A DNA stretch of 64,000 nucleotides, taken from the NCBI GenBank assembly GCA_963920665.1, contig OY987267.1, forward strand, positions 13,082,001 through 13,146,000, in the 5' to 3' direction. The stretch is from Straminergon stramineum (taxonomy: Eukaryota; Streptophyta; Bryopsida; Hypnales; Calliergonaceae). The notes under the pieces are model-generated. The model saw only the letters and a list, made by a program, of their open reading frames with translations. It was not told the origin of the DNA and made no database searches. This document shows, in pieces, positions 48 through 35,102 of the stretch (within the stretch, counting starts at the first letter, position 1; each line of letters opens with the position of its first letter). The translations under genes were made by a program, and so were the position numbers.

Positions 48-2582
48 ATGGATGCCGCCGCGCCGCCCACTTCGTACCCCGCCCCGCCGTCTGTGTCGTT
101 GCGACCCGGGGGTGGAGGCCGATCCCTCTCCCTCCGCCCCTATAGTGCGCCCAACCAGAATGGTGCCAAGGGGGGGTTGTTGTTTGCTGAGACAGAGGCT
201 CCAAACCCTAATGCGGGGGGGAGCAAGTTCGTGATGCGAGCCGCGGAGAGGTTGCCGCGGGCGTCGCATGATAGGATTCGGTACGCGAGGGATCGTCTGT
301 TGGAGTTTCGCGACGCGTGCACAGAAGCGCCAGAGGAGCTAGTGAACTCGGGGATCGATGGCTTGACGGCCGGTGCGGGAGCTGAGGAGGAGTGGAGTCG
401 GAGGGAGCCTCGGGATTTGCCGCAGCAGCAGCAGACGGGGGGGCGAGTGACGGAGCCGGATACGCGAGATTGGAAGGCACGGGCGCCCGCGCCCGCGCCT
501 GTGGTAGAGGAGAGGTCGTCGTCGCAGCAGAGGGATAGAAACCCTAAGCAGCGGAATGAGAGGACTGAGAGGAATGATAGGGGCGACAATCGGGGCGGGC
601 AGCGGGAGCAATCGAATTCGGGTTCGCAGGCGATGCAGCAGCGGCAGCAGGAGAACGCGCCTGCCGGGCCGGCGCCCGCAATTGTGAAGGCCGCAAATCC
701 GTGGACGGCTCGCCGGGGCGCGTCGTCGGAGAAGGAGAAGGTGTACCGCACGGTGAAGGGGATCCTGAACAAGCTGACCCCGGAGAAGTACGATCTTTTG
801 GCGGAGCAGATGGTGCAGGCGGGCATCAGCAGCGCGGAGATCCTGCAGGCCGTGATTTCGCTCATCTTCGACAAGGCGGTGCTGGAGCCGACGTTCTGCG
901 CCATGTACGCGCAGCTGTGCGTGCACTTGAGCAAGGAGTTGCCTGAGTTTCCCGGGGAGCATGCCGGGGACAAGCCGATCACTTTCCGTCGTGTGCTGCT
1001 GAACACTTGCCAGGAGGAGTTCGAGGGCGCGGACGCGCTGCGCGAGGAGATCAAGAAGCTGACGAAGGCGGATCAGGCGGTGGAGCGCGACGAGAAGGAG
1101 AAGCGCGTGAAATTGCGTACGTTGGGGAACATCAAGCTGATCGGCGAGCTGTTCAAGCAGAAAATGCTTCCTGAGAAGATCGTGCACGCGTGCATTCAGG
1201 AGCTCCTGGGTCAGGACCCGAAAGCCACCCCTGCGGAGGAGAACGTGGAGGCGCTGTGCCACTTGTTCACGACGGTGGGCAAGCAGCTGGAGGAGAGCGC
1301 CAAGTCGAAGATGGCGTTTGACACGTACTTCGCCCGTCTGAAGGTGATCGGGGAGACCCGGGGTCTGCCTTCTCGAATTCGGTTCATGGTGCGCGACATT
1401 CTGGACATGAGGTCGAACAAGTGGGTGCCCCGGCGTGAGGAGATGAAGGCGAAGACCATCAACGAGATCCACGCGGAGGCGGAGGCTAAATTAGGTCTGC
1501 GACCTGGGATGATGGCCCTGCGCAATGGCCGAGCAGCGGCCATCCCAGGCTTCATGCCTGGGGCGGGAGGGATGATGCCGGGCATGCCAGGGATGCCTGG
1601 AATGCCTGGAATGCCCGGAGGCGGAGGGAGCATGCCTGGGGCCCCGATGATGGGGAGCTATATGGGTCCTGGTCTGGAGGCTGACGGGTGGGAGACCGTG
1701 AGCAACCTGCGCAAGAGCCGGAAGGACGGCACGGGTGTGTTGCCGGTGCCCGGTTTTGGGGGTTCAGGTGTTTCTATGGGCGGTGCGATGCCCGGCGCGG
1801 GTGTTCAGGCCAGATTTGGTTCTCCGGCCATGCGTGCGAGCGGCGTGGGTACGAGGATTCTTCCACAGGGCAGTGGGTATGGATTCATGGGCAAGCCGAG
1901 CGCTTTGCTGGGCTCGGGTTCGCCGAAGCCTGTGGCCGAGCCCGCGAAGGCGCCTGAGCCCGCTCGGGAGGTGGTGGCACGGCCTGCACCTGCGGCGTCT
2001 GTGGCTGCGACTCCCGCTGCGGCTGCAGCAGCTCCGTCGGTGGATTTGACGAAGAAGTCGGAGAGTCTGCTGAAGGAGTACTTCTCGATCGTGGACCTGA
2101 ACGAGGCTCTGCTGTGCGTGCAAGAACTGAAGAGTCCCAGCTTCCATCCTGAGTTTGTGCGTCTGGCGATCGCCACGGCACTGGACATGCGAGAGAAGGA
2201 GTGCGAGTTGGTGCTGAAGCTGCTGGTGCACCTTCAGTCGAAGGAAGCGATCTCGAGCTCGGACTTGAGGGGTGGCGTGTTGCTGGTGACGGAGGGGATG
2301 GAGGATATGGCGATGGATGCGCCATTGGCTCCGAAGCGGTTTGGAGGCATGTTGGCCGGTCTGGTGTTGTCCGGTTCTGTGGATCTGCGTCTGGTGCAGG
2401 AGGCGGCGCTGAAGCTGGAGGACGAGTTCTTACAAGAGGACGTGCTGAAGGCTGTGGTTGGGAAGTGGAAGTTGAAGGAGAGCGAAGTGCAGCTGGGCGA
2501 GGTGTGTCGGAAGGCTTCGGTGGACAAGGAGGGTCTTTTGAGCGTGTCCGGGGTCAGTGACCTGGCGAAGCTCTTAGGTTGA
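48..2582 (+). CDS. eIFiso4G: Eukaryotic translation initiation factor isoform 4G, copy A (844 aa)
   Basis: Scaffold subunit of the plant eIF(iso)4F cap-binding complex. It bridges eIF(iso)4E, eIF4A, eIF3 and PABP to recruit ribosomes to capped mRNA in the cytoplasm. Visible in order: an N-terminal disordered segment; a canonical eIF4E-binding motif YARDRLL (YXXXXL-phi) at residue 79; a short Gln tract near 125; an Arg/Gln/Asn-rich linker; the MIF4G HEAT domain at about 220-455; a Met-Pro-Gly repeat at about 505-530; an Ala/Pro linker; and the MA3 domain at about 665-790. The length fits the family (angiosperm proteins are just under 800 aa as I recall). The start MDAAA is conserved in copy B at 52696. 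The CDS is uninterrupted, whereas I recall introns in angiosperm orthologues. From codon ~135 to the penultimate codon it appears identical to copy B; the N-terminal part is a diverged paralogue. Confidence 0.95.
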   Translation: MDAAAPPTSYPAPPSVSLRPGGGGRSLSLRPYSAPNQNGAKGGLLFAETEAPNPNAGGSKFVMRAAERLPRASHDRIRYARDRLLEFRDACTEAPEELVNSGIDGLTAGAGAEEEWSRREPRDLPQQQQTGGRVTEPDTRDWKARAPAPAPVVEERSSSQQRDRNPKQRNERTERNDRGDNRGGQREQSNSGSQAMQQRQQENAPAGPAPAIVKAANPWTARRGASSEKEKVYRTVKGILNKLTPEKYDLLAEQMVQAGISSAEILQAVISLIFDKAVLEPTFCAMYAQLCVHLSKELPEFPGEHAGDKPITFRRVLLNTCQEEFEGADALREEIKKLTKADQAVERDEKEKRVKLRTLGNIKLIGELFKQKMLPEKIVHACIQELLGQDPKATPAEENVEALCHLFTTVGKQLEESAKSKMAFDTYFARLKVIGETRGLPSRIRFMVRDILDMRSNKWVPRREEMKAKTINEIHAEAEAKLGLRPGMMALRNGRAAAIPGFMPGAGGMMPGMPGMPGMPGMPGGGGSMPGAPMMGSYMGPGLEADGWETVSNLRKSRKDGTGVLPVPGFGGSGVSMGGAMPGAGVQARFGSPAMRASGVGTRILPQGSGYGFMGKPSALLGSGSPKPVAEPAKAPEPAREVVARPAPAASVAATPAAAAAAPSVDLTKKSESLLKEYFSIVDLNEALLCVQELKSPSFHPEFVRLAIATALDMREKECELVLKLLVHLQSKEAISSSDLRGGVLLVTEGMEDMAMDAPLAPKRFGGMLAGLVLSGSVDLRLVQEAALKLEDEFLQEDVLKAVVGKWKLKESEVQLGEVCRKASVDKEGLLSVSGVSDLAKLLG

Positions 2583-16540: not shown

Positions 16541-16548
16541 GGAGGGCT
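16541..16548. repeat. Left target-site duplication of the giant hAT
   Basis: GGAGGGCT immediately precedes the terminal CAGGGTTGAC. The same eight bases follow the other end at 35095-35102. Eight bases is the duplication length characteristic of the hAT superfamily. Confidence 0.85.
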
Positions 16549-16589
16549 CAGGGTTGACGAAAGTGAGAGTCCTGGGCAAAATCGCGTCC

Positions 16590-16710
16590 AAAAATCGGTT
16601 GTCCGGCCATCCGGACCCTGCGGACACTACGTCTCTGGTGGGTAAAAAACACCATCCGCAAATTTACCTTGGGTAAATGCGATCGGGCAGACGAGCGGAC
16701 GGCTAGTGGC
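16590..16710. repeat. Subterminal GC-rich block, left end
   Basis: Words GTCCGGCCATCCGGACC, GCGGACAC, CCATCCGC and GAGCGGACGG lie 40-160 bp inside the left terminus of the giant hAT. The equivalent block inside the right end (34830-35075) contains GGACGCCGGACATCCGGACG. Clustered subterminal motifs are typical transposase-binding regions of hAT elements; that role is inferred here. Confidence 0.6.
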
Positions 16711-17175
16711 TAGTTTTTTAATACAAAGCTTCAACTCCTTCAAGTAAACTTTGATTCCTTGAATGCTTTTTACAATAACATATGGAGTTATGGACTATCC
16801 TTTGTAGTGTACTCAACCAAAGAAATTGTACACTATAATTGCAATTATGAATTATCAAGGGAAAGGATTAAAAAAAAATTCAAAATTCTCTTCACCTTGA
16901 AAATTACCAAATCTATAATTCTATGACAATCATGAAGTCAAAATTGTTGCATTATATATGTATCTTGCAATGTATCATGCTTCATACAAAGAAAGAGGAA
17001 CACAATCAATTTGGGGGGGACTTCTTTTAGGTTTTGCAATTCACAAAAAAATTATCATATTTTCAACATCAATAAGCAAACTCCAACTGCAATGGAAGCT
17101 TCAGACAATCAATTGCCATTACATGCTCAATGTATCATAAGCACCTAAACACCTAAGCCTACATCCCTTGAATCT

Positions 17176-20100
17176 CTAAGGCTTGTAATCACTATCTCCT
17201 TTCACCTCAGCCTCGCTATTGTCACATCTAGTTCCCCATTGGTTGTCTTCATCGCTAGATGTCTCTTCCATGTCGTTTGATGAAGATTGTACAATTTTCA
17301 CTCCTTTTTGTACTTGTGTAGATGTGAATGATCTCATTGATCTACCGGTCTTCTTCTCCATTTTGGCTCTTAATATAGACTTACCAATAACTTCCTTAAG
17401 GCTAGGGATTGTTTTCATTTTTTTCTTTGAAGAAACTTGATAGGTATCAAGTGGGGTTCTACCCACATTCGGTCTCTTGCTGGGAGAGGTAGCAAAGGGT
17501 TGCATTATTCTTTTTTTACGAGCTTTAATGGAGTCTTCACCGTGTGATATCTCTACTTTTGGCACTTCTTGAATAATTAACTGCATTGCATTCAAAGACT
17601 ACGATGTGTGGCCTAATGATTTCAAGGAATAGTGTGGTGGATGGCCTCGATGTTGAATAAACATTGAAGTCAATGTCTCATCCTTATCATCATCATCGGT
17701 ACATAATAAAATGGTTCGACTTGGATTGCCTCCAAAACCCATCTCTTTCGTAGAAGACAAATGTCTTTTTTCAAGTCGTGATTTCCTTGAACCATTCAAT
17801 GTAGTGGCATCACTTTTAAATAGTGCAAGTGGAGGAGTGCTATGTGGTGGTTCGGGAGAATCTTCCATAAGGTACATTTTGCCAACAGCATTGTTGACAA
17901 AAATTGGGCTGCCTGACTCTATCGAACGTGCTTCAACATTGTCTTGTACTTCGTGTGGTTTGGCATTTCCAATATTTGCTTCCCCACATTTCTTGCTTGC
18001 CAATACCACTATTGACGCACCAATTGCATTGGACATGTTCATTTCAACGTTCACCTCACATCCTCTTTTGTCTTCATGTTGGTAATTTTTTTTCTACCGC
18101 CATTATTGGGGATGGAGCATCGGAAATGGGAATCACTTCATCCTTTTCAAGACTCCCATCATTCGCAACCGTTGTCCTATTGGTCGCCCTTATCTCTACA
18201 TACGTATCCTTTATGTTTGGTAGAAGATTTCTGCTACTCATGAATCCGGTTCTATCTACAAATCTAGCTATCAAAGTTACATCATCATCAAGCCTGCAAT
18301 CGTCCTCATCTGATCGAAACTCATACATGTCTCCATCCGCGACTCCGAAGTCTTCATTGTTTTGATTAGGAGTCTCAAACATTTCTTCATCAAAATTGTG
18401 CATATCATAATTCACAACATCTCTATCATCAGATATAGATTCATCATCCTCGTCTTTCGAGATAGGCCCTTCCGAATCTTCGGACTCCATGTTGTCATGG
18501 TACCACTTCTTTTCATCCTTCTCCTTCGATGCGGCTATGACTTTGGAATTGGTATATACATACACCAAATCGGCTGCTCTCTGTGGCCTCAACTTGTTCC
18601 GGGATTTGTTGTGAACAAAAGAGTAGCTACTCTAATTTCGTTCACATAAAGATGATCACACCGGTTGGGCCAAAATCCTCTTTGCAATTGGAGCAATGAG
18701 CTTGCCACATGCACCCTCAAAATCCCACCAAGCATGTGCTGACAATTTCTGCTCAGCCGGATCCAACATGTCGTGGAACGGAGGATCTCGGTGTTGAAAT
18801 GCTACAAACTCCTTCACTACGTCAAGATAAGTTTCCGGTTGACATATTTTCCTGATAACGCACTTGCATGCATTTGTTGCATCTTGATCATCAGCTAGTT
18901 CTTTATTGTGAAGAAAGTAAGGGTTCAAAAGAGCTCCTGCATAATGTAGATCGGTCTCTACCATTTCCTGTTGCTTACCAAACAACTTTTCGATAGGAAT
19001 GGCTAAGTCCAAGGACAAACCAAAGGGTTTTTTTCGTAAAGAGAAGACATGCTTCTCTAAATTCCTCATGATGTGCAACACCTTGCCCATGCATGGTGTC
19101 TTCGCATCCAAATCACGTAAACCAAACACCACAAGAGTCATCAATTCTTGGAAATTAGTGGCATGGGCCCAAAAATGCCCATCTAAAATTGTCTTCTTCA
19201 CCTCCCGAGGCTCCGTATGAGATTTTGCGTTCTTCGTGTCCCGTAACTTGAGGACATATTCTACCCATTGTGGATCCACCACACTTTGTTGCAATCCAGT
19301 CTTGACCTTCAACAAACGAGAAATCATGAAGAAATTTGAGGCAAATCTTGTTTTCACTGACATCAATAAGCTATTCTTTGTTTCGTGCTTTTGAAATATA
19401 GCTAGCGGCATATGTTGCAATCTGAAGAACTTGACAACGGTTAGGGCCTTTTCCACGAGGTCCTTCAACCATTCTTGCTTTCCCCAATCTTGAAGCAACA
19501 AATTCAAGGCGTGCACCACACAACCTTGAAAGAAAATGTGCGGATATTTACTCGACACCATATTCCATGCTGCCGGATTTACAGGAGCGTTGTCTGCAGT
19601 CACTTGCACAACATTTGTGGGGCCTACTTGTTCTATAAAATTTTCCAAGACAGAGGCCAAAAAAGGAGCATTCTTTTCGATTCCACTTGTATCCACCGAT
19701 CCTAGAAATTGCTCACCCGTAGAAGATACAAGCATGGCATTTATCAATGGTCAATTGGTAACCGAGCTCCATCCATCAATAGACAATGTTGCTCCAAACT
19801 TCCGAATGCTATCTTCGGTCTGACTATGAAGCTTTGTCTTGATGTTGGTCTTCACTTGGTCAAGCAATTTATGGCATAAATCATGATACGATGGTGGAGC
19901 GTAGGGCCCATGGTACTCGGCTGTTTTTTCCACTGCTTCTTCAAATGCCGGATTTTGAGCTACGGCAAATGGTATATTTGCCGCATAGAAGAAATTGGCC
20001 CACACTGCATTCAAATTGTGTTTTGCTGCGGAATCAAAGCCATCCACTAGACTACTCTGTCTTTGAGGTCTACTGCTTGATGCCCTTGGAGTGTCACGAT

Positions 20101-20485
20101 CACTGGATGTTTTTGTAGTTCGGTTTACTTCGGATCCTACACCAACAAATTCTTCCATTGCTGCGCATGAGTCCTCTTGAGTAGAACGCGCCATATCCCT
20201 TTCATTTGAAAAATCGCAAATGACCATACGCATGCTACCAACATCTACATTGTCAATGATCGGTCTCTGCGGGAATGCCCCATTAGATCAAAGAAATAGG
20301 ATTCGAACATCCGGCGTCAATTGCGAACAAAGACTCACTTATGTATCACGAACACCTGATGGGCCTTCATATCCTAAATGGCTCAACATACAGCTTATCT
20401 TCTTCGCAAACACCGAGTTGCAAGCCTTGCACTTTACCTTACTAGTTGATGGGGTACCATACCAACCAGACCAATCCTTACTCAT
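17176..20485 (-). pseudogene. Gene A: BED-finger hAT transposase with acidic C-terminal extension
   Basis: One reading frame runs from an ATG at 20485 to about 18090, then shifts by one base in an A-run near 18085-18092 and continues to 17176 (~1,100 codons). Order: BED-type finger (VKCKACNSVFAKK... LSHLGY); an Arg/Ser linker; DUF659-type core with TLSIDGWSSVTN; VTADNAPVNPAAWNMV; the hAT CxxH signature GCVVHALNLL (19511-19522); and the hAT C-terminal dimerisation region at about 18600-18700 (WWDFEGACGKLIAPIAKRIL, then SLCERN, SSYSFVHNKSRNKL). A ~450-residue extension rich in Asp/Glu/Ser follows, unlike typical 600-800 aa hAT transposases. In-frame stops are TAA 20339, TGA 20288, TGA 19751, TGA 18656, TAG 18632 and TAG 17599. 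It would excise and integrate the element; this copy is inactive. Confidence 0.85.
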
Positions 20486-20789
20486 AGTGGCAAGGCACAA
20501 ATTTTCATTCCGTATATTGGAATAAAATTCAAAATGTGAAGACCGGATGAACAATGTCCAAATATAATAAAAAAATGAGTGCACAAAGCCTTGAAAATCA
20601 AAGCCCTCTTGTCCACTAAACTATACATTACCAAGCAAAGGACACAAAAATTGCAGCTCCTAGCCCCTAGAAATCTTAGCGTTCAGTTTTCAAGAGTATT
20701 CTCAAATGACTTCTTTCCTACGGTTATAGTCTTCCAAACTGGCCTGATCATTGGAGACCATTTTTGAATCCACAGAACATGTAATCTGA

Positions 20790-21025
20790 CGTCGGTTGAT
20801 TCTGCAGTGGACGGGCGGGTAGGCGGACGAACGGTCCAGCGATCGGGCGGTCGGGTGGGCGGGCGGACAAACGGTCCACCGGACGGGCGGTCAGGCACAT
20901 GGGGGTCAGGCCGATGGACAATGCGGACAAGCGGATGGAGTGATGCGAAGACAGGCGGACGGGTGGTTTAGGGCAGACGGGCGGATGGGCAATTTAGGCG
21001 GACGGACAGATGGGCGGGGTAGGTC
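20790..21025. repeat. CGGACGG-type block upstream of gene A
   Basis: A dense run of GGACGGGCGGG, GGCGGACGAACGG, GGGCGGTCGGG and GGCGGACGGACAG words lies 300-540 bp upstream of the gene A start. G-rich on the plus strand, hence C-rich on gene A's coding strand. Composition is strikingly different from the AT-rich neighbourhood. Possible promoter or transposase-binding array. Confidence 0.7.
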
Positions 21026-21434
21026 GTGTTCAAATGTTCAATGCTTCAAGAGATGTGGGACAAAATATGGATTTATGGATGGAATGAGCTAATGAGGAGA
21101 TTTCAGAAAATTATGGTTTTGTCAAAGGGTCTTATAATTTAAAATTTCTAGATGAGCATGAAAAAAACATACTTCACAAAAAAGTGTCCTTCATAAATCA
21201 CTATAGCATGAATTTAAAAGAAAGCAAAATAAATGATTAATTCAAAGATATATATATATATTGATATTTCATATTTGGATATATAAAGAACTTCAAAACA
21301 AATCAAAATTCATCATGAGTACAATGAATTACTAGTAGTACTCAACCCTTATAACATTCAAGCCACACTTGCCGGTATACTTCTATACTATTAAACATTT
21401 AAACATAATAAAATAAGGAAAGCCTCTCTTATAT
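21026..21434. other. AT-rich spacer between genes A and B of the giant hAT
   Basis: No gene is seen. It contains a (TA)n run near 21251 and separates the GC block upstream of gene A from the 3' end of gene B. Confidence 0.4.
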
Positions 21435-22362
21435 TTAAGAACCACTACCCTCTCCTAATTCGTGAGATGGCCCCTCCTTAGCCAAAAGTCTTGCACTCAT
21501 TTGTCGAGTATTTGGCCCAAGATTGTAGACAACACCTCCTCCGGATCTAACCTCCATGTCAACCACTGAAAACTGTCGTTAGGTTTCCGGAGAGTGGTCA
21601 TCGTCATTGTCATCCTTTCTTCCGTTTTGAGCTTCACTTTGGAGACAAATCTACTTCTTCAACCTTCAAGGCCCTCAACGTAGCATCCACTCAATCTACG
21701 AACACATTGACCTATTCATCATCACCTTTGATGGGTAACCCTATTGGTCGAAAATCGGCCAATAGAAACCCCCTCCATTCAGCTATGATGTCACCTATCC
21801 TCTTGTCAAATGCCCCAGCTACCTCCACAAATGAATGCCCTGTAGTTGTTTCCCCATCTATTTCAACAAGAGCACGAGCTTTGGCAGCTTCTTCCAACTT
21901 TGACAAGGAAAGGGCCCTACCAATCAAAGTGTGATTATAAGCCTCGTATTGCTCATTGAACTCTTCAACATACTCTACCTCTACCCAAGTTTTTTAGGGC
22001 CCTTTTTGCACTTCTTTGTTGGGAAACCGAAAAAATTTCTTGTGTTGCACACTCCAATGGCCCCCCATGTTGCAACAAAACAATTCACGAGCCTCGCCAT
22101 CTTCAATATCCCGGGCTCGCAACTCCACTTCTTTGTTAACAGTCATCTACATGAAAGGATCCACTGGCTCTCCAGACCCCTTATATAATCCATGTTGGCA
22201 ATCAATTGAATCCCACGTGAGAGGTCGCCCCAAATGCAAGAAATTCTGGAACTGATATGGCCCTTGATCAAGAGGAAGGGTCCATCGGTTGTATTCGTGG
22301 CCGAGGGGCATATCTTCTAAGATCCCAAGCATTTCGTAGAACCGAGGGCTCAAAGAAAAATG

Positions 22363-22485
22363 ACACTCGGCACAAACCGAACGAATGAGTGATGCTTTCA
22401 CAATGCATGTCATGTGAAAAGTGTGGTGACATTGGCCCATGGTCAGGGCTCCTTCAGGGCCAAAAGGACCTTGGCAAAGGCTACA
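22363..22485 (-). other. Intact RING-H2 domain within gene B
   Basis: Counting from the local Met at 22677, ligands are C65, C68, C83, H85, H88, C91, C102 and C105. This satisfies C-x2-C-x14-C-x-H-x2-H-x2-C-x10-C-x2-C, the C3H2C3 RING-H2 spacing. The domain lies in a 176-codon stretch free of stops, the best-preserved part of gene B. Confidence 0.85.
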
Positions 22486-22821
22486 ATGACTCTTCAAGAT
22501 TCCTAGGGATGGATCGCAAGCATGCACTACTATCTTGTCTTTCTCCTTGATGTGCGTTGAAAGCGTGTTGTAAGGGACCCACCCTTCCTCTACTTCCAAG
22601 GCCCAATCAATGTGTGCAACATTGTCCTTCTTTGTGTGGTTCAACCGCTCAAACATGTCATCCATGTCCCCCAACATGTAATTTCGGTGGAACCCCTTGA
22701 ATATTCATCAAACACTTTCTTGAACCAAAGCAAAGAGGTCTTCACGGCATTGCATTCTTCATCCGACTTCATTGCCAATTTCATAAGCCCTTTCATTGCT
22801 CGAGATACTATAGAGGGTTTG

Positions 22822-23944
22822 TGTCGCGCCCCTTAGTGACACTTACCACCTTAAGCTCACTTTCCAAACACTTAACACCTCAATGCCACCAAGGTTCACA
22901 CTCTCCTAACACTGCACATGCCACGCACCCACAATGTTAGGTTCCAACTCAAGTCACGGGGTTCCCCATTCCTCCGTGACTCCCAATCCTTTCCTTCCAA
23001 TACTCAACTCCCACAAGACACCGGGCATGTCATTTGATGACATGGGGCGGAACTTCCATTGATGTCCAAGCACTCGGTGAGGCACTACTCCCACCAGTAC
23101 TAACCGCCCTTGAATGGGACCCAACTCCCCACTAGGCCCAACCCAACTCATTTCGGGACTCACTAATCGGGACTCACCAAACGGGACTCACACCATGGCC
23201 AAGTGTGGAGTGGGACACCACCCAACCGGTATCAAGGAGTGCACAAGCACTCCATGGTAACACACAAGTGGTGGTGAGGCTCCAACACTAACCTCACCAC
23301 CCGGGGCCACTTAGGCTCACCATGGCACCATCCGGGAGTGAGGAGGGAGACCACCCTTCCTCATAGTACTCTCTGCGGGATTCGGCAGCCCCCCCCCATA
23401 CTAGAGGTCACCGGGAACCCCCAAGATGCACCCCATCTTGGAAGACCACCCATTTCTCCCGATTCGCACTACTTTGGGACTCCCGAACTTTCACCCGGCA
23501 TAACTTTGCGGTCCGGGATCCAAATCGCACATGCGACCCCATTTTCGACATCTACGCGACGCGTAGATGCCGATGGACTACTCACTTTCTCCATTCGGAC
23601 AAGTACTCGCAAAGATATCGCCCTCCAAAGATTCGGGACACTCCCGGTGCGGCCAGGGCACTCCCGGCGCGACCGGGACACCCCCAACTTTGAACGCCTA
23701 TAACTTTTGACTCGCAAGTCCAAATCACGCGTTCTTTGGACGGCCAGAAGCGTCTTCTCAAGACCTTTCCAAGAACGTATCACACGCCCCCAAATTCGTC
23801 CGGATCAGAGCGCTACATCGCTCTGATCGCTCGGGACTCCTAGTCCCCTTCACCTCATCTCTTGCAAGGCTTGGGGAGTCACCCCCAATGTACCCCTTGC
23901 TCACCAAGGTGGCACGGGCACGCCTTGTGATGAGGGTCGTGACA
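22822..23944. mobile_element. Solo LTR (1,123 bp) with 5-bp TSD, inside gene B
   Basis: The element begins TGTCGCGCCCC and ends GGGTCGTGACA, so it starts TG and ends CA with related inverted ends. The 5-bp duplication GTTTG lies at 22817-22821 and 23945-23949. It is GC-richer than the surrounding DNA and has no gag or pol. Excising it with one TSD restores the gene B frame (VQKLQDK to SIVSRAMKGL). These are hallmarks of a solo LTR left by recombination between the two LTRs of a retrotransposon; the strand is undetermined. Confidence 0.88.
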
Positions 23945-26159
23945 GTTTGTCTTGGAGTTTTTGTACCCATACCAACCATCAAGACTCTAATATGCTCTTC
24001 AACATGCATTCCTCCATGCTCATGATTTTTTGAAATCGGTCCAACTCCACCTCAACAAGGATTTTCTCTTGAATTGCTTCATCTAATTTCAACTGTAGCT
24101 CCTCGTTTGTGTCAAAGCATCCTACAATGTACGGGAAACATTAGGAACGATGGTCCGTACTACTTCTTCACATTTCTTGTCATTCCCAACCTCATCCAAA
24201 TTCAAGATGATGGACGTCTCTACCACTTTTGCCTTCTCAAAAAAAAGAGAGAGTTGATCGCTCTCTTGACTTTCTTGCACAAATGGAATGATCACGGAGT
24301 CCATAGTAGGCCTACCCCTCTTCAACTCTTGTACTTCGAGCTCCAATTCTTCGATGCGCTTTCTTTGAACAACCTTGTTACAACGTTCCTGCTCCATGTT
24401 TTTTTGCGACAACTGCAACTTCATTTCCAAGTCCTCACACTTCATCTTTAGTTGATGAATGTCTTCCTCTAAGGCCATCAAACTTTTTAAGTTCATCACG
24501 CCACCTTCCAAAATTGGTGCCACTTTCTCGGTGAAATTGCAAAAAGCCAAGGCACTAGTCAACAATTCAGGTGCCATTCTGGAAAAATTCCTCAGCCAAG
24601 TCCCTTACCCAAGGAGTAATTTCAACTACCATTTTAGTTGAAGATCTCAATCTGTATGCAGTTTGCGAAATAGTACCCCAACCACCTTTTCCTGCGGGCT
24701 GACTAGAGCTCCCTGCCTCATTTTCGGGATCAGAATCAAGATGTTGTTTTGCTAGTACTCGCCAATGACTACAACATTCTAACAGCTTTTCCAATTGATT
24801 GGCAGTGGGTATGGAACAAAGAATCTCCAATTGAGCCGAGCTTAAAGTTGCCAAATGTGGATGCCTAACAAGTCTTGCGTTTAGTATTTGTCTTGGGCTC
24901 AACCTTCGACTTGGGCTTATTTTTTGATGCGGACTCAACATTCGAATTGGGCTTAGTGTTTGGCTTCGCCTCGGCGTCGTTGGCAGCTGAGAAATTGGAG
25001 TTGCATATTCCATCAAGCTCTCAAGAGCTTTACTATCTATGTAACCCTGTATTGTAGCATTGGTCCTTGCAAGTTGGTCCCCATTGACCTCTCCATCTGG
25101 CGAAAAAGTTGACCCACGTTCTTCCACCAATGTTTCCTTGTTTGCAACCATGTCTAGACCGCCCAAGGTTGTTTCATTCGTTGTAGTTTCCTTGCTTGGA
25201 GCCATGCTTTGTTCACTCAATGTTATCACATTCGGTGTGGATGTGAAGCACGTTGGAGGAGTTACAAAAACCTCTCCATCCACACCTCCCGAGGAGACAT
25301 TGCTCACTTTCGTGCAAGGTTGTGTCACTTCTGTGGACCTTCATTGTATTGCATCACCTAAAACCTTGGAGACATTTGTTGTACGCGTTGTAGTATTTTC
25401 TAATACTTTTGGGGTCTTCGTTGGTTTACTTGGTTCTACCTAAGAATTGTACAGATCAAGAATGTCTTTTTGATTGGGTTGTAGTAAAAGTAGAGAATCC
25501 ACTTTGGATGGATAAGTGCTCCAATCTACCTTGCAGTTTAAAATGAGTTATGCATACACCGTGGATGCCACGCTGTAATTTATGCATCCCTTACTCCTTG
25601 GCTTGTCCCCAAATTGCGCCCGCCACACCTCCTCCGATCGATGCACAAAATGCTTATTGTTGCAATTACGTGGCTTACAACAAAAACCATGTGTATGCAC
25701 CACGTGGCAATTCCAAGGCCACAACTTGTCAATGTGGTACATTTTAACATACTTCTTGCATGTTTTGAAGGTCCAATATTCCCCTTCCTCCTCCTCCCAA
25801 CCGCTCTCCGCTTTGATGTTCAGGTCATCTAAAATCTCATAGTGAACCCATAAGGGGCCCCCTTCGCTTTAGTCCCTTTCTTTTTTTTACCTCCTAAAGT
25901 CCTCCCATCGTTGGTAGGAACACCTTGATCCGCCATGATAGATGATTTGAATTTTTGAGCCCTTTGAAAAATAGCACCACAGCACATGAATACTCTGAGA
26001 TGTGTGTAAATAAGTAACAGTGTAAATCAACAATAGTAACAAAAGCTCAAGGACCCCCACTCTCCACCTTGTAGGAGCAACTGACACATAAAGCAGCAGT
26101 AGCACATCCAACTTGGCGCCAAAGGAGAGTAGAAGTGAGCAAATGAGGAGGCCATCCCC

Positions 26160-26460
26160 CCATATACCCGTCTGCCACCAAACCTAAAAAACGTCCGCCG
26201 CAGCAAACGCCGAGTGATTGCTCAGATTGGCAGACAGGCAGCTGTCCGCCCGCTCCGAAATGAAACCAGACCTCCCGTCTTCCAATCCCAACCGCCAGCC
26301 GCTCCTAAACCATCCCGTCCACTCAGGCCGTCCGCCATCGCTAACCGACCTCACACTTGGCCATCTGCTCAGGCCGTCCACCGTCGCCGACAAACCAGAC
26401 ACAACACTATTCACCTTGCTAGGGCCCCCACCTGACAACAGTCCGCCGGCAGTCCTAAAG
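26160..26460. repeat. CGGACGG-type block upstream of gene B
   Basis: C-rich on the plus strand (ACGTCCGCCGCAGC, GCTGTCCGCCCGCTCC, CAGGCCGTCCGCCATCG, CAGGCCGTCCACCGTCGCC). It begins about 220 bp upstream of gene B's ATG at 25937. The repeated word CAGGCCGTCC(G/A)CC(A/G)TCGC occurs twice 50 bp apart. Confidence 0.65.
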
Positions 26461-28249
26461 CATTGAATTCTGAGAAGGATAGATTCATGTACAAAAAATA
26501 CTCTTGAATGCTAGAAGTATCCAATGTAGTATTAATGTAAGAAAAGGTAATTCCAGATATTCCTTCCCACATTTAAACATGCTCTCCAAAGTCCAAACCC
26601 TATATCCTAAACCCTAACCCTCCAAAAAAAATCAAAATTATACAACCCTCAATTGTACATATTGAATTTATAACATTGCACGAATTTTCAAAATTATTGA
26701 TACAATGTGTGGAATATGTTTTACCTATGAGACTATGATTCCATTGCAGTTTGGAATGCAATTATGACAATATAATGCAGATGTAGACCTTTCTTACTTT
26801 GTCATGTACTCATGTTAGTATGTTACTCATGTAGGTTTCAATTTTTCTTAAGATTTAGTACCTCAATTATCACTTTATTATGAGCCATTAAATAAATGTG
26901 GAACATTCAATTATAACTTAGAGTGTGTTTTCAATTTTTGTTGTCGAATGTATTCATAGTTTAGAACACCAATATGAAATTATGAATATACTAAAAGAAA
27001 TTATATTATCTCATTATTATATTATAACATTTATTGAATGTATAGGATGGTGCTAAAATGATTCAAGCATTTTAATGTAATGTGAAATGTTGTAGACAAG
27101 ATTAAAGTAAGAATTTATACAACAAAATGAATTGAAAATTCATATCATACACACTATGGCACTTATACCTATGTATACTTATGTGCATCCTAAATTGTAA
27201 ATTGATCATAAATTTATCACAACCCCAAAATATTAGAGCTTAGGTAATGTACAATGTGATGGACCTTCAAATATGATGAGTTTTCAATTACAAGAAATTA
27301 GAAATGGTCATACTTTAATGATTACAAGTGTGTTTCATCTCAAAAAAATTTTGCAAATGATTATATAGAAAGGTTCATAATATTATATCTTTTGAATTAT
27401 AATTTTACAATATTGATTGAATTGCTTATGTTAGTTATGTAGTTATGTAGGCCTAGGATTTTGTAAAATCTTGAACCCCTAAAGCCTTCATGCTTTTTTT
27501 CCCATTGAATATCACTCAAAACTGCCATTTCGAATGCAAAGAGACAAAAATCTTAAAAATTGATTTTTGGGCATATTTAACCATAGGAATTTATACTAGA
27601 CTAGTATACAAGTTAATTGAGTAATCTTGTCATCTTGAAAACTTTGAGTACATACATTGCGCATGGTATTTGCATTTAAAGTAAGCCCAAGAAATCTTTT
27701 CTTCCATCTTGCTATACTAGATTGTTGGGCTTCTCATTTTCTTCACTTTAGATTTTTGACACTAATGAATTTTATTTTAGAATATCTCGTGTTGAAAAAT
27801 TTAACTCTTGAGTGAAGAATCTTGAACCAAAAATTTAGAAATAAATCATTTAATTGAGATCACATATCATAAGAGTCCCATATAAGAGTGTAGCCGTGTA
27901 GGGCCTTTGGGAGTTTAGGGATTCATTATTTTCCTTGAAAGGCATGAAAAAGAATAATAAATATTATAAATTGAACCACGAAGGCTTTTGTTACAATCTT
28001 AACATTGAATTTCTTTTGCTATTAGTCAAAAAGTATTGTTGACATCACAAACTTGTACAAAAGCACCAATGTAAAACAAAATTTCTTTACGCACTTATTT
28101 GAATTCTTTATTTACAAATCAAATGATTTTTCAAACAAGAAACTTTGGGATGTCACTTTAGATAGTTGTATCAATTTAAGACCTCATGACATAACATATT
28201 AAAAATAATTTCTCTAATTTTCTTAATTCACCATGTAATACAAGCTCTG
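26461..28249. other. AT-rich centre of the giant hAT between divergent genes B and C
   Basis: No gene is recognised. AAACCCTA-type telomere-like words occur at 26595-26620. The part from about 27460 to 27790 is a diverged copy of about 30800-31110 in front of gene D. The shared order is AACCC(C)TAAA, GCTTTTTTTC, TGCCATTTC.AAT.CAAAGA, TTTGCATTTAAAG/TTTGCATTCAAGG and ACTAGATT.TTGG.TTCT. Confidence 0.5.
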
Positions 28250-28900
28250 CCTGCTAAACCGTCCATCCACCCATCTCTACATAGTTCAAAACACCTCTCC
28301 CGCCCGTCCGCCCGTCCACCAATTCAGAAATTGAAAAACTCCTCCCTCCCTCCCGCCCACCTCTCCCCTCCCACGCTCCCCTCCGTCTACCCATCTGCCC
28401 GATCGCTCGTCTACCCAACCGCTTGTCCACTGTAAACCAAACACCAACTCCCAAACTCAAAAACGCCTCCCTCCCTCCCACCTCTTCCTCCCACCTCTCC
28501 CTCCCACGCTCCTCTCCGTCCACCCGTCTGCCTAAGTAACAATTCAGAAATTGAAAAACACCTCCCTCCCACGGTCCCACCCACCTATCCCTTCTCATGC
28601 TTCTCTCCATTCGCTCGCCTGTCCGCCTGACCGCTCGACCGCTGTAAATACTAAACCAAACACGAACTCCCAAACTGAAAATTGCCTCCCTCCCTCCCTC
28701 GGTCCCACACTCCCTCCCACACTCCTCTCCGTCCGCCCATCCGCATTTCCCATCCACGTCCGCACTGCTCCGTCCACTACTTGTCGGTGACCGTGTGATC
28801 TAGCGGATGGTGATTTCAGACCGCCCGATCTGCCCATCCGCCTTTGTGCCATCCGATGCGGACGGTAGTGTCCGCATACCCTAAAGCGCTGACCGCATAA
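28250..28900. repeat. CGGACGG-type block upstream of gene C, with internal tandem repeats
   Basis: C-rich on the plus strand, with CCGCCCGTCCGCCCGTCC and CCTCCCTCCC runs. A module of about 115-210 bp (AACTCCCAAACT.AAAA, then CCTCCCTCCCTCC, then CTC.TCTCCGTCC.CCC, then AATTCAGAAATTGAAAAAC) occurs about three times between 28310 and 28760. It ends about 420 bp before the gene C start. Confidence 0.65.
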
Positions 28901-29318
28901 ATGGCGGCGCGGACCACTCATTTCTTCACAATCGTTTCCCTTCCGGAATGGGTGATCCAGTGCCTTTGGGAATCTACGCGCCCCTTCCGGCTTGGTGCGT
29001 GAACAACTGTGTTCGTATTACCTTTTTTTAATCGGATTGGTTTGAGTGATTAGGGGCTGCCCCAACTTATAAGTCTTGAATTTTACGGAGTTCATTTGAG
29101 TGTTCTTAATTACTTGAACCGTGTTCAAGTTGATTGGGTTGTCAGAAACTCAAGGTGTTCACTTTTACGGTTGATTTGGTTGTCGGTAACAATAGGTGCA
29201 CTTTGTTTTAATCCAAATTCTTACTTTTCATTTGGTAAATTTAGCCAAAGCGAGCGGAAATTGCATTTAAACTTTGTAATCCTTTTGGTTCATTATTAAT
29301 TGAGGTTTGGAGGTTATT

Positions 29319-30407
29319 ATGTCACGCGGAAGTGGTGGAGGAAGTAAGAAGGGGAAATCACAAGAGATGAATTCGAAAGAATGGGCAGACATAACCTGCG
29401 TTGCGGAAGATGGATGGGAAGAGGAGCCCAAGAAAGTATGGGACTGCACAACATGCAAGAAGTACGTAAAAATGACGCACCTCTCCAAACTATGGTCACA
29501 TGATTGCGCAAAGGTGCAAGTTCGTCGTTGGAAAGGACAAATGTCCACATATAAGAGTGAACACTTTGTTCGCCAATATGAGGAGATAACATCTGCATCA
29601 AGTTTACCAAGCTCCAAGCCAAATGTCATGAACTATTCAAACATGGCTATGATTTGGGCAGAGATAGTACTCCTTAAAGAAGTAGATTGGCACACGGTTG
29701 CAGGGCGCAATGTCAAGAATTTAACTTGTCAGGAAGCCATAATTCCTACTAATTGGGTTGGACCAAGCGATTGTATGCCAGAGTGGTCCAATCAAGGCTA
29801 TGGAGGACTTCCTTCGATCGTCTTGAAGGATGCTGAAGATGATTGTTCAAATGAAGATGATATTGATGATGATATAGCACCCATGACATTTGGTGAGAGA
29901 CATGAACATCGAGAAGATCGGGAAGACATTGAGTACCAACAACAAATGCAAGAGGCCATGCGCTGAAGCGTGGAAGACCGGGGTCGGCAACATGATGGGT
30001 CCTACTATCGTGACTATAATGTACGTGGATCACAAGATGGGACAGGTGGTTCAGATTATGGTAACACCCCCCGAGTTGGCTTTCAAAGTATAGGAGGAAG
30101 CCATGGAACGACACACTATGGTGGTTCTAGCCAAGGAGGCTCTCAATACCACTCTGGATCGACTACACATGGTTCATATGGGCATCAGGGAGGCCCTTAC
30201 TATGGTGGATCAAGTCAAAGAGGGTCCTGGGAGAGTGCTCCAATTCCTCCTCCAACCTTTGGAGGTCCTTCTTTTGGAAATGAATATGGACAAGGAGGTG
30301 CATCAAGTGGATATGGTTACAACTATGGGGGTGGACCATATATTGGGGTACATCCTTCAGGCCCAAATGACAACAAGGATTCCAATTCGGATTCGGATTC
30401 AAAGTAA
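29319..30407 (+). pseudogene. Gene C: finger protein with Gly/Ser/Tyr-rich tail, one in-frame stop
   Basis: The frame runs from the ATG at 29319 (MSRGSGGGSKKGKSQEMN) to a TAA after SDSDSK at 30407; a TGA at 29964-29966 is its only stop. Residues ~35-70 carry WEEE..K.VWDCTTCKKYVKM, then THLSKLWSHDC. This is a C-x2-C...H...HDC pattern matching the gene B N-terminal segment (TCKKYVKMYHIDKLW) but with the first Cys retained. An acidic patch (DDCSNEDDIDDD) follows. The last ~140 residues are a low-complexity GGS/YGG/QG region like RNA-binding or phase-separating proteins. It may be a DNA- or RNA-binding accessory protein of the element; I do not recognise a named family. The single TGA could equally mark a natural end of a shorter 216-aa protein. 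Confidence 0.55.
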
Positions 30408-31489
30408 AGTAGAGTATGGTATTCTAGTCATCTTATGTTTGTTTTACTGTATGGTTCACTCATTGTAATGTACATAGATGGTAGAGTGCGGCAAATATAG
30501 CACAATGCTCTTGACGAGTTGTAATCACCTTTTTGTGATTTCGATACAAATACATTGTATTTTTATATTTTAATAAAGCGATATTTATGTCACGTAATTT
30601 GTAGGATTTAATACCATTGATGTATGACTATGGGTTAATGGGTATTTGTGAAAATGAAAAATGTATTGGACCACTTTCTATAATTTTATCACTTCAATCA
30701 TTCAATGTGAATAGGTGAATTGCAAATGCAAAGGATGTCCCAAATATACAATAGAGATTTGTAGAATAGCGAGAACCACCATTTTAGTTTCATTTGCTAT
30801 TAGAAATTGAACCCTAAACCCTAGAAGTCCGAAGGCTTTTTTTCATCGAAGACCATTTAGTGATTTAGAATTGCCATTTCAATTACAAAGAAGTAGAAAA
30901 TGTAGGAACAATGTTTTTGGCATGTCGGATTGTATGATTTTGTACTATAGCAATTTATGAATGTGTAGAAGTAATTTCAAAAACTTAACCCACATAGATT
31001 GTAAGATATTTGGCTATTTGCATTCAAGGTGACTGAAACAAATGATTTTGCTATTTGCTTGACTAGATTTTTGGCTTCTAATTATTGAAATAATAAATAT
31101 TTCCACTTGTGAGTACTATTTTATAATTTTGTATGTTGAAGACTTGAAGAATTTAGATGAGAGCATGAGAATGTAGGAAGAAAAATTCCCCCAAAAGATG
31201 TTTAGTTTTTATTCTTAAGAGAATTGATAAGTTGAGTATATTCAAGATAGATACTAGAACATTAATAATTTTAAGATAAAATTATGTAAACATGAGAATC
31301 TCAACGGTGAGAGTATTTCAACAAGCAAACCTCACCGGCTATCCCTTTGTAAATTTTTTTCATTTTCATGATAGATGATTTACTTGATTCTTACTTTCGT
31401 TTGAAACTGAAATGTTGAATATCATACCTATGTTTGACTTAGAGATGTTCATGAGAAATTGAAATCTCCGATTGTGCAATTCATCTCTT
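30408..31489. other. AT-rich spacer between genes C and D, partly a duplication of 27.4-27.8 kb
   Basis: No gene is seen. The stretch ~30800-31110 matches ~27460-27790 in word order at perhaps two-thirds identity, on the same strand. The 5' flanks of genes C and D therefore appear to descend from one duplicated upstream module ending in a GC-rich block. Confidence 0.5.
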
Positions 31490-31900
31490 CTATCCGCCTC
31501 GTTTCATCCATCTGCCATCGCCGGACAGGCTGCCGCATCCACGCCATCTACACAGTCCGATCCTGCAGATAGCTTGCCGTCCATCCGATCGGACGAGCTC
31601 ACGGCGTCCACGACAAGCCGGCCGTTGGATCTGGCGGACGCTGATCGTCCTATTGATCGGACGGCCGGTTCGAGGCGAACGGATGACCGTCCACACAGTT
31701 GGAAGGCTAGCTCGGGGCAGACGGAAGACCGTCCTCGGAATCAGACGGCCACGACAAGGCGGACGGCCACCTCAAGGCGGTTGGAGTGTGGCCAAACGAT
31801 CGGACGGCTGCGACGAGGCGGACAATCGGACGGCCACGATGAGGCAGACGAAAGGCCATCCACATGATCAGATGGCCATGAGGAGGTGGACGGCCCGTCC
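31490..31900. repeat. CGGACGG-type block upstream of gene D
   Basis: Mixed-orientation words: ATCGGACGGCCGG, GGCGGACGGCCAC, GATCGGACGGCTGC, CCGTCCATCCGATCGG, ATGACCGTCC and GAAGACCGTCC. It ends about 185 bp before the gene D ATG at 32085. As in the other blocks, the composition contrasts with AT-rich flanks. Confidence 0.65.
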
Positions 31901-32084
31901 GCAATCACTTTTGCCTTGTCCCTTGTGTTTTGCAAGTGTGGAGTGGAGAGCTTGGTGGTTCGTCCTCCATTGGTTCCTCTCCTCGAGAAGGCGGAAGTCT
32001 TATTTGGGGGCCCCATTATTGCCATTTTTTGTAGCGAACTTCTAAGTTTTAGTTACAAATTTCGAGTATTAAAAATTTATCACG

Positions 32085-33553
32085 ATGCCAAGATCGAAGA
32101 AGGCGGCGAAGGGAAAACAAGTGGTACAAGAGGTGGAAAGTAAGGAAATTCCATCCGATGCATGCAAAGCATTCATGACCGAATGCATTGCAAAATTCTA
32201 TGAATCGGAAACCACTGTGTCTCTTGACACAAAATATGTAAGATATGGAGAGGAGTGTCCATCCAAATTCAAGGCAGACATGACACAGAGAATGTTGGAT
32301 GCCTTATACGTTCTGCAATGGCAATATGAGACGGAGAAGAGGGGCTTCAACAAATGTTTGGAGAACAAGGTGCATGATGCATTGTAGAACGCCGATGTGG
32401 TTCTTGAAAAATACGGCAAACAACACCGTGCAAATGATGAAGGCTTTGAGCAAGTCATTCTCAAAGCTCAATTGTTTATTGGGCGTTGCGCTCCATATGC
32501 GAAGAGGCGTAATAGACGAAGGTCATTGGGTTGGTGGACTAGTCGTGAGGATCTTACTGAATTGGATATGGGTAGATGTCATCTTATAGTGCTTCCGGAC
32601 ACGGCACGGGTGATTCCCCAAGATGGCTTAATCATGAAGGGAAGATATGCAACGATTCGAAGGGTGAGAATTGAAGGATGTCAAGGGATAGCTCCATCTT
32701 GGGAGTTCGCAGCAAAGATATCCAACCACCACGGTACGCAGCCTCAGCTTGCAAAGTTGAAACATCAAAATGAATCAATGGCAATGAGGATTCCACATTC
32801 AGAAGTCATACGGTTTACTGCACTTCATGCAAGAACAAATGAAGGGTACTTGTATTGGTGGAATGGCGGAACACTTCGGCAAATGTTGAACTTGGATAAC
32901 GATTATCCAGACAACATATATGTTCGGTTATAGTATTCGAACCCAACAGAGTCAAATGTGACTAAAGCTTTTCATCTCGCTCGATTTCGGAAGAAGTGCA
33001 CCAAGTTTGCTTCGGCATTGGTGCATATCATGAATGCGGTACATGTGTCTAGACATCTACACAATGATATTCTCCAGACAACATCATGTTTCATTTTCCT
33101 GATGATAAATCACGTGTTTACATTGGCATTTGTGATTGGGGCATGACTACTATAGCTACCGAACCAATGAAATCCTTGTATACATTCACATCTGCAAGTG
33201 ACATGAACGAAGCTTTAACAAGGAGGTGGTGGGTGGATCCAAGCATTGCATATTTGCATAGAAGAGATGCAAATGTGGAAATCATTCCACATTTATCAAG
33301 TGCATCAGAGGAATATGGGATTGGTAAAATAGCTCAAAGGATCAATAAACAATGCATGTCTGAGAACTACAGCAAATTGCAACAGGAAACAAATGCAATG
33401 GCCATGTTTAGCCACCACCAATTGGGAATTGTGTTTCACCAATACTTGGACTGGCTTTGTCAAAAAGGTGATGGTCATCGGGGTGGTTTGGCCCACATCA
33501 TCAATCGGTTCACTGGCCAATTCAATTGGCCTATGCCGGATGAAAACTTCTGA
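32085..33553 (+). pseudogene. Gene D: protein-kinase-like protein of the giant hAT
   Basis: The frame from ATG 32085 (MPRSKKAAKGKQ, Lys-rich) has TAG stops at 32385 and 32931, and a one-base deletion near 33075 shifts it; about 490 residues result. Kinase-fold landmarks in order: a strand resembling the glycine loop (MKGRYATIRRVRIEG); the beta-3 lysine in WEFAAKISN (K211); a hinge-like GYLYWWNGGTL; a catalytic-loop HND (H326, D328) followed after the frameshift by DNIMFHFPDD in place of HRDxxxxN; and CDWGM (D at 33134) in place of DFG. The APE motif is not obvious. Thus Lys, catalytic Asp, Asn and the metal-binding Asp are all present. It may phosphorylate the transposase or host factors, or be a pseudokinase. 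Capture of a host kinase gene or an element-specific family are both possible. The N-terminal ~130 residues match no domain I know. Confidence 0.7.
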
Positions 33554-34829
33554 CATTCATATTAGTAATATAGTGCAAGAGTGCACTATATAGAGTTTTA
33601 TAAATATTTAATAAATGTAGAACTTCAGATTTATGCATGTAGATTGCTTAGTATATATGCACCCCTAGAGTATGTCAATATATGTGAAATTAGACATACA
33701 TTTTGAATTTTTCAATGTATTTGAATTGTTTTTGAATGAATATCAATTTTTGACAAATCAAAAATATCTCTTGTTTGAGTGCAAAGTGCAATATTTCTTC
33801 TTGAATGTAGATGGCTATTTAGTTGACAAGCTTGTATGACAAATTGCATGATGTATGATGTGTGGGTGCAAAAGTTTCTGAGCCCATTCAATTTCATTTG
33901 GAATAAATCTTGGAAGAAGACCATTTCATTTATGATATGGAATTACTTGGACCTTCTTAGAAGTTGTGTTCCAACAATTTCATTGATATTTGAATTATCA
34001 TGACGACCTGTTAAAGCAATTGTGGTTTTATTGTTTTAGTGTGTATACTTATAATGAATCAACTATGAAGAGATGTAATTAGTAAATTCATCACAAATTT
34101 ACAATGAAGGATTTTAAAGTAATTTACATAAATGATTTGTTTGAAAAAGGAAGTTGTATCTTATTCACCTGAAATCTTTGGAAGCAAACATGAAGCATGT
34201 GACCGTATGTCCGTATTTTTGATGGCATGTAATTTTGAAATTAAATTGTTATATGTTGTTTTTTTAAGAGAATTTTCCAATAGCAAATGATTTTATCAAT
34301 TCAAACAAAATTCTAATGTGATTCATGAAGTGAAATTGAAAAACAAAGAGAGTGATTCAATTTTAGTGTTTTTTCAAAAAGGTTGAGGACTTTAGTACTT
34401 TACGACACTTGGATTTTTAGAGGCCTTTGGGTTCCCAATTTAGACCCTCAATTTTTTTTTCGTTGCATTGTTTTCATAAAATGAACAAAGAAAAATAGGA
34501 AATTAAGCTCTAAATGAATGGGTTACAAAATGTATGTGTGTCCAATATTTTCCTAAACCCGAAACCATAATTAATTTGTTATTTTGAGTACCGGTTCTTT
34601 GTATATTTATTAAAAAAATCCTTTGAAATTCTATTGCAACACTCAAAAATGAATTATGAAAATAAATGACTTTTCTCTTTACAAATTTGTAAAGTGCAAT
34701 GTTCTTTTTGTTCATTGCTAAGGACTCTTAGAAATGAGCATGAATTGTACCAAATTTCAAAAACAAAATCGCATTAGAAATTCTCTTAGAATAAAAAAAT
34801 AAAGATAGAGACAAAATTCGGGGAGTCTT
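33554..34829. other. AT-rich spacer between gene D and the right end
   Basis: No gene is recognised; short frames only. It lies inside the giant hAT. Confidence 0.45.
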
Positions 34830-35075
34830 AAGCGGTCGGATGGGTTGGCGGATGGTCTCCAGAGACCGTGGTCAAGCCGACGGATTGGCGGACAGGCTCC
34901 AGAATCCGTGGACGGGGTCACGGATGGGCGGACGGGATGGCGGATGGGCTGTAGAAACTGCGGACGGGGTCGCGGACGGGAAATTACCCCAAGCTAAAAA
35001 CCAAATTTTCCGAATGTCACAGGACGTTCAGGGGGGTTGCGGACGCCGGACATCCGGACGCTGGCGGCTGCGTCA
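34830..35075. repeat. Subterminal GC-rich block, right end
   Basis: G-rich on the plus strand: GGTTGGCGGATGGTCTCCAG, ATTGGCGGACAGGCTCCAG, ATGGGCGGACGGGATGGCGG and GACGCCGGACATCCGGACG. A ~50-bp unit (GGCGGA.GG.CTCCAGA..C.GTGG) recurs two to three times. It ends within about 20 bp of the right terminus. Confidence 0.65.
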
Positions 35076-35094
35076 AGATGCCCTGTTAACCCTG

Positions 35095-35102
35095 GGAGGG
35101 CT
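35095..35102. repeat. Right target-site duplication of the giant hAT
   Basis: GGAGGGCT directly follows the terminal GTTAACCCTG and equals 16541-16548 exactly. Confidence 0.85.

Follow-up and report, generated by a model that had tools for sequence, protein, structure and literature searches.

The subject of this study is a repeat-bounded unit of 18,546 bp (16549..35094) lying in a 64,000-bp stretch of the genome of the moss Straminergon stramineum (assembly GCA_963920665.1, contig OY987267.1, positions 13,082,001 to 13,146,000 of the forward strand), hereafter called the window. This unit probably represents a family of giant hAT DNA transposons, about 17.5-18.2 kb long, with four element-borne, intronless genes (A to D) that likely serve the element. 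Its structure as a unit, its boundaries, its recurrence in the genome, its gene content, the conserved full-length relatives of its genes and the distribution of a short motif (CCRTCCG) are direct observations.

The body of the window copy is bounded by 10-bp terminal inverted repeats, i.e., CAGGGTTGAC on the left (16549..16558, + strand) and GTTAACCCTG on the right (35085..35094, − strand). Target-site duplications GGAGGGCT, read from the sequence, flank it on the left (16541..16548) and on the right (35095..35102). The first-pass annotation of this DNA had proposed hAT-type termini CAGGGTTGAC/CAGGGTTAAC with an exact 8-bp duplication on both flanks, and all of these are present. Among the 165 CAGGG...CCCTG pairs lying 0.3-25 kb apart in the whole window, it is the only pair with flanking 8-mers matching at 7 positions or more. 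The right repeat reads GTCAACCCTG in four other copies (designated c05, c10, c18 and c16). Since CAGGGTTGAC...GTCAACCCTG forms a perfect 10-bp inverted repeat in c18 and c16, the terminal mismatch seems to reflect decay private to the window copy. Both the 8-bp duplication and the 10-bp repeats are traits of the hAT superfamily, for which terminal inverted repeats of 5-27 bp are given in the literature (PMC12506042).

The source genome (326 Mb, 59 contigs) was probed with the 220-bp left end of the element. At least 40 scored matches, including the window, were obtained from 291 first-look candidates. The left boundary (window positions 16546-16550) is common to all of the 19 other loci among the matches listed, and 18 of them extend 1.7 kb into the element; the last one, L003, is rearranged. 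At L003 one copy of the element is apparently inserted in the C-D region of another copy. Stretches of 20 kb were obtained for 11 other copies (c02, c04, c05, c09, c10, c11, c12, c16, c18, c19 and c20). Five of them (c04, c10, c12, c18 and c16) are colinear with the window copy from one terminus to the other and carry the four genes in an unchanged order and orientation; the final right-end bases of c12 and c18 were taken from a separate reading of the ends. A twelfth copy, L006/L041, was covered at its left end and in its right half; it has genes C and D and both ends, which are taken to belong to one copy. The first-pass annotation had asked for further copies with the same ends, the 8-bp duplications and the same gene order, and named as a refutation that genes B-D never stand with gene A. 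Such copies were found, and the co-occurrence in five of the 11 copies read over 20 kb speaks against this refutation.

The other copies are interrupted in various ways: (i) c02 contains an insertion, after which the match leaves the fetched stretch; (ii) c19 and c20 stop matching at window positions 29816 and 26019, respectively, and neither resumes; (iii) c05 lacks window positions 22588-30708; (iv) the match of c09 ends at 22822; (v) c11 is interrupted by a right end in inverted orientation. One 200-N assembly gap is present in each of c05, c09, c19 and c20. It is located within the missing part in c05 and just past the end of the match in c20, thus the truncations of these two copies may be assembly effects. 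It should be noted that, among the 40 scored matches listed for the left end, 14 are on contig C11 (17.4 Mb, about 5% of the genome), which could be a sex chromosome or an otherwise low-recombining one.

Eight copies have two ends (window, c16, L006/L041, c10, c12, c18, c05 and c04), and duplications matching in register at 7-8 of 8 positions flank five of these. The match is 8/8 in the window copy and in c16 (ATCTGGAC/ATCTGGAC), and 7/8 in L006/L041 (CGCCTGCT/CGCTTGCT), c10 (CACCTCCT/CATCTCCT) and c12 (CGTTGACC/CGTTGACT). Both ends of c18 are flanked by nine identical bases, ACTTTATAC, shifted one base out of register. Apart from the window copy and c05, the two-ended copies measure about 17.5-18.2 kb (c10 17,471; c04 17,598; c16 17,742; L006 17,862; c18 17,872; c12 18,180 bp).

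Part of the greater length of the window copy is due to a 1,123-bp solo-LTR-like (long terminal repeat) insert within gene B (22822..23944; TGT...ACA ends, 5-bp duplication GTTTG), which is absent from all other copies spanning position 22822. The giant 18.5-kb unit announced by the first-pass annotation stands as an element; its length is partly that of the insert, and the window copy is decayed. Pairwise divergence among the window and ten copies is similar over five modules (means 5.6, 5.9, 6.6, 6.1 and 6.2%), as expected if the element moved as one unit. Most of the private changes are of the C-to-T or G-to-A type, with a non-synonymous/synonymous ratio near the expectation without selection; copies have thus decayed after insertion.

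Gene A (17176..20485, − strand) encodes a hAT transposase with a DUF659 domain (PF04937, E 1.9e-25 in Pfam), C-x2-H, the dimerisation signature SSxxCERNWS and a long charged C-terminal extension. It is a single frame of about 1,100 amino acids (aa) in c02, c19 and c18, each with three in-frame stops before the terminal stop; it is frame-shifted in c12 and carries stops and frameshifts in the window copy. The match to a BED finger is weak (PF02892, E 0.0091, 16.5 bits, under the cut-off of 20.6). Gene A of c02, c19 and c18 contains SSSSCERNWS...RNKL, which we take to be the hAT C-terminal dimerisation signature; no Pfam dimerisation model was matched by the window pieces of gene A. An exon-split model of the transposase and of gene B was dropped, as the copies show single reading frames.

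Gene B (21430..25936, ends approximate, − strand) comprises an N-terminal finger module, a coiled coil, a RING-H2 finger (C3H2C3) and a C-terminal region. It is one frame of about 1,100 aa, with two stops in c20, and is broken in the window copy by the LTR-like insert and by frameshifts. The C3H2C3 ligands are invariant in all 11 sequences compared, and a window piece matches Pfam zf-RING_11 just over the cut-off; from these ligands a protein of RING-H2 ubiquitin ligase type is predicted. Gene C (29319..30407, + strand; about 365 aa, one in-frame stop in the window copy) has a Cys/His-rich folded N-terminal module and a disordered tail rich in Gly, Ser and Tyr. Its structure model has a mean pLDDT of 56 and is folded at about residues 20-130 only. 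Neither sequence comparison (best E 0.1, for a match in the tail) nor fold comparison gave a convincing relative of solved structure for gene C. The N-terminal modules of B and C are aligned by hhalign over 147 columns with a probability of 99.8 and E 1.8e-28; B and C are paralogous in this module. Among 5.8 billion proteins, gene B has 11 matches (five covering at least 97% of the query, 32-53% identity), gene C has 33 (11 covering at least 91%, 44-62% identity) and gene D has 50 (28 covering at least 92%, 42-69% identity).

Gene D (32085..33562, + strand) encodes a kinase-like protein of about 493 aa with a GGYATI loop, K, N-D...N and D-W-G, preceded by a helical N-terminal domain; it has stops and a frameshift in the window copy. 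The residues K, N-D, N and D-W-G are invariant in all 23 aligned sequences (the query and 22 of its 50 matches). The two window pieces of gene D matched no Pfam family. Seven of its relatives match Pkinase with E values from 1.6e-6 to 4.6e-4, all under the curated cut-off, and two of the seven are just above the cut-off of PF07714. The model of gene D (pLDDT 81) is matched by Foldseek to kinases of the PDB with a probability of 1.00 and low TM-scores. The fold model and the residues place gene D, as a prediction, in the protein kinase superfamily. Its relatives include M758_3G001500 and KC19_VG055000 (a cluster of 126 members) of the moss Ceratodon purpureus; none was found in viral_contigs or genome_contigs. 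One relative, P0004, is filed under a 'Bacilli' metagenome-assembled genome (MAG) and is probably plant contamination of that bin. A partial, diverged second gene D with stops (83.5% DNA identity) lies beside c05 (L024:6469-7374). Downstream of gene D, window positions 34014-34343 are replaced by about 1 kb of different sequence in c12, c18, L006/L041 and c16 (up to 34503 in the latter), which is a subfamily difference.

The four kinds of gene that the first-pass annotation had placed inside the element (transposase, RING, finger/Gly-rich and kinase-like) are all there. Its gene models required revision: all four genes are single frames, B is one protein of about 1,100 aa, and the N-terminal modules of B and C are paralogous. 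The divergent layout around an AT-rich centre was also borne out, with A and B leftward and C and D rightward. The centre, between B and C (26537..28200), has 28.1% G+C (28% when rounded) vs. 42% for the whole element; two other intergenic stretches equal it in low G+C. When majority codons are taken over the copies, gene pieces counted, no stop is left in B, one in C, one in D and two in A, which suggests that the founder copies of the burst probably had intact genes B-D. Among the changes shared between copies, non-deamination transitions lean towards synonymous ones in A (11 synonymous vs. 3 non-synonymous) and in B (7 vs. 3). Codon-position counts over ten copies are uninformative because post-insertion decay dominates.

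The motif CCRTCCG is found at 32 sites in the element vs. one in the other 45 kb of the window. Twenty-nine of the 32 are in the terminal 600 bp or upstream of genes, and the LTR-like insert holds one of the remaining three. There are three sites in the left terminal region (16549..17148, + strand), five upstream of gene A (20621..21220), one upstream of gene B (25937..26536; two to six in four other copies), seven upstream of gene C (28201..29318, a region of imperfect repeats of about 220 bp), six upstream of gene D (31441..32084) and seven in the right terminal region (34495..35094, − strand). A similar pattern is observed in four other copies (26, 22, 41 and 37 sites per fetched stretch) and c16 has 33 sites; the left end of c10 has none. 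In Ac, subterminal motifs bind the transposase; in the present element the motifs are a mark of the regions upstream of genes as well.

The mechanism proposed for the family has the following steps. By analogy with hAT chemistry, transposase A would cut at the 10-bp CAGGGTTGAC inverted repeats and insertion would produce the 8-bp duplication; B, C and D would move with A as a single unit. Genes B-D would most likely serve the element, e.g., in the control of transposition or in countering host silencing. The CCRTCCG clusters are likely binding sites, and one element protein (the transposase or the B/C module) may use them to act on ends and promoters together. A bolder version can be put forward tentatively, i.e., a self-contained regulatory system in which an element protein (the B/C finger module or the transposase) reads the CCRTCCG clusters at the two ends and before the four genes, with the RING and kinase-like proteins acting on host silencing or repair, either to disable it or to re-tune it, and so letting an 18-kb hAT amplify; the gene set would then be long persistent in plants, with mosses as likely hosts.

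Several results weigh against a family of giant hAT transposons served by its own genes. Four intact frames were found in no copy read. The flanks of c04 lack a matching duplication and those of c05 agree at only 5/8 positions. Shared non-deamination transitions have no synonymous excess in C (9 synonymous vs. 8 non-synonymous) or D (0 vs. 3), and shared transversions have none in any gene; within the family, a signal of purifying selection is thus confined to these transitions in A and B. The shuffle control of CCRTCCG, with 2.25 sites on average and nine at most in 300 shuffles vs. 32 in the element, is favourable but after the fact, because the motif was chosen by a k-mer scan of the same element; the other copies bearing it are homologous, hence not independent. 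Finally, the sole indication that B and C occur together at about 53% identity is that a relative of B (P0052, 53%) and a relative of C (P0068, 54%) both have a longest contig of 17,649 bp, which may be one and the same contig; no contig of 17,649 bp is found among the gene D matches.

Part of these results bears on the rather improbable case of a giant hAT in which B-D are captured host genes that ride along passively and do nothing for the element. It agrees with the missing synonymous excess of C and D, hosts commonly have proteins of the kinase and RING types, and the function of B-D for the element is something we infer. Against it, B, C and D are single complete frames, their relatives span the full length at 32-69% identity, and their catalytic or zinc residues are invariant. 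The presence of the B and C paralogues inside the same element and the motif clusters, which tie the regions upstream of genes to the termini, also speak against it.

The motif clusters could also be read as relics of old termini in a composite of fused hAT-type elements now moving by its outer ends. Internal clusters and termini do have CCRTCCG in common, and nested insertions of this hAT family exist (L003 and c11). Nevertheless, neither the full 10-bp CAGGGTTGAC nor CAGGGTTAAC occurs on either strand inside the window copy (a shorter AACCCTG is at 25043), every internal cluster lies upstream of a gene, and the gene order is fixed in full copies. Fusion is about as improbable as passive cargo.

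It is very unlikely that the transposon derives from a virus or from a fusion with one, which would make B-D what is left of viral genes. Teratorn, a fusion of piggyBac and a herpesvirus, is a precedent; the element is multigene and intronless, viral kinases match the fold of gene D, and large DNA viruses frequently encode kinases and RING proteins. However, PDB kinases match gene D at least equally well, no kinase relative is found in viral contigs, and no capsid, polymerase or packaging gene was found among the open reading frames (ORFs; inspected by eye) or among the nine pieces searched in Pfam. That there is no single element, i.e., a small hAT beside unrelated neighbour genes with chance duplications, could not be excluded from the window copy by itself, but is for all practical purposes ruled out by recurrence at other loci: five colinear end-to-end copies, with distinct duplications of their own in c16 (8/8), c10 and c12 (7/8) and, shifted, in c18.

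The first-pass annotation had also considered that transposase copies might end inside the interval with their own terminal repeats and duplications; none was met in the copies read. Only one shorter element proved to have ends and a duplication (CCACACTG/CCACACTA) of its own; it measures 4,044 bp and lies in the c09 stretch (L026:4191-8234). Its matches are limited to the left end, the centre and the right end, with about 75% DNA identity in the two longer ones, and none of them falls in genes A, B, C or D. It is probably a non-autonomous internal-deletion derivative of a diverged subfamily.

Outside the element, window positions 270-2582 and 50147-52462 form an inverted 2.3-kb duplicate with 98.1% identity, presumably a stretch of an eIF(iso)4G-like gene. 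The right duplicate (50147-52462) has a long open frame of 869 aa, which is not listed for the left one. An ORF at 61935-62390 resembles, by eye, the C-terminal portion of a reverse transcriptase gene of LINE type.

Compared with known systems, the element resembles the hAT superfamily (Ac, Tam3, Hermes) by its 10-bp CAGGG repeats, 8-bp duplications, DUF659, C-x2-H, dimerisation signature and motif-rich subterminal regions. It differs from Ac, Tam3 and Hermes by a transposase of about 1,100 aa with a long C-terminal extension and by three further genes. As a rule, hAT elements are described as small, several times smaller than this one, and as having one gene. VANDAL/MuDR elements, which have sequence-specific anti-silencing proteins, are also multigene plant DNA transposons with a short motif over their non-coding parts. 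They have a Mutator transposase and 9-bp duplications and, to our knowledge, neither kinase nor RING. In rust fungi, hAT7 elements have a gene for a TET/JBP dioxygenase, so that here, too, a hAT is joined by a further enzyme gene that may counteract silencing; they differ by being fungal, by 7-bp duplications and by a described cargo unrelated to B-D (PMC12730594). ToxhAT/ToxTA of wheat-pathogenic fungi is likewise a large class II element with cargo (14 kb for ToxhAT) once called a hAT. It is no longer held to be one, and is considered a likely non-autonomous Tc1/Mariner with a TA duplication, 74-bp repeats and a single copy (PMC12506042). In Physcomitrella, a survey of 2018 reported that hAT elements were not found (PMC6027215). 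At the level of titles and the beginnings of abstracts, the literature gave no multigene hAT comparable to this one, which is not proof of absence.

A multicopy hAT of about 18 kb with three further conserved genes would show that a plant DNA transposon can evolve in the direction of a mobile entity with several genes. For annotation there is a warning in this, since such kinase and RING genes may be counted as host gene families. The motif clusters and the B/C module would offer a direct handle on how the element controls itself or its host.

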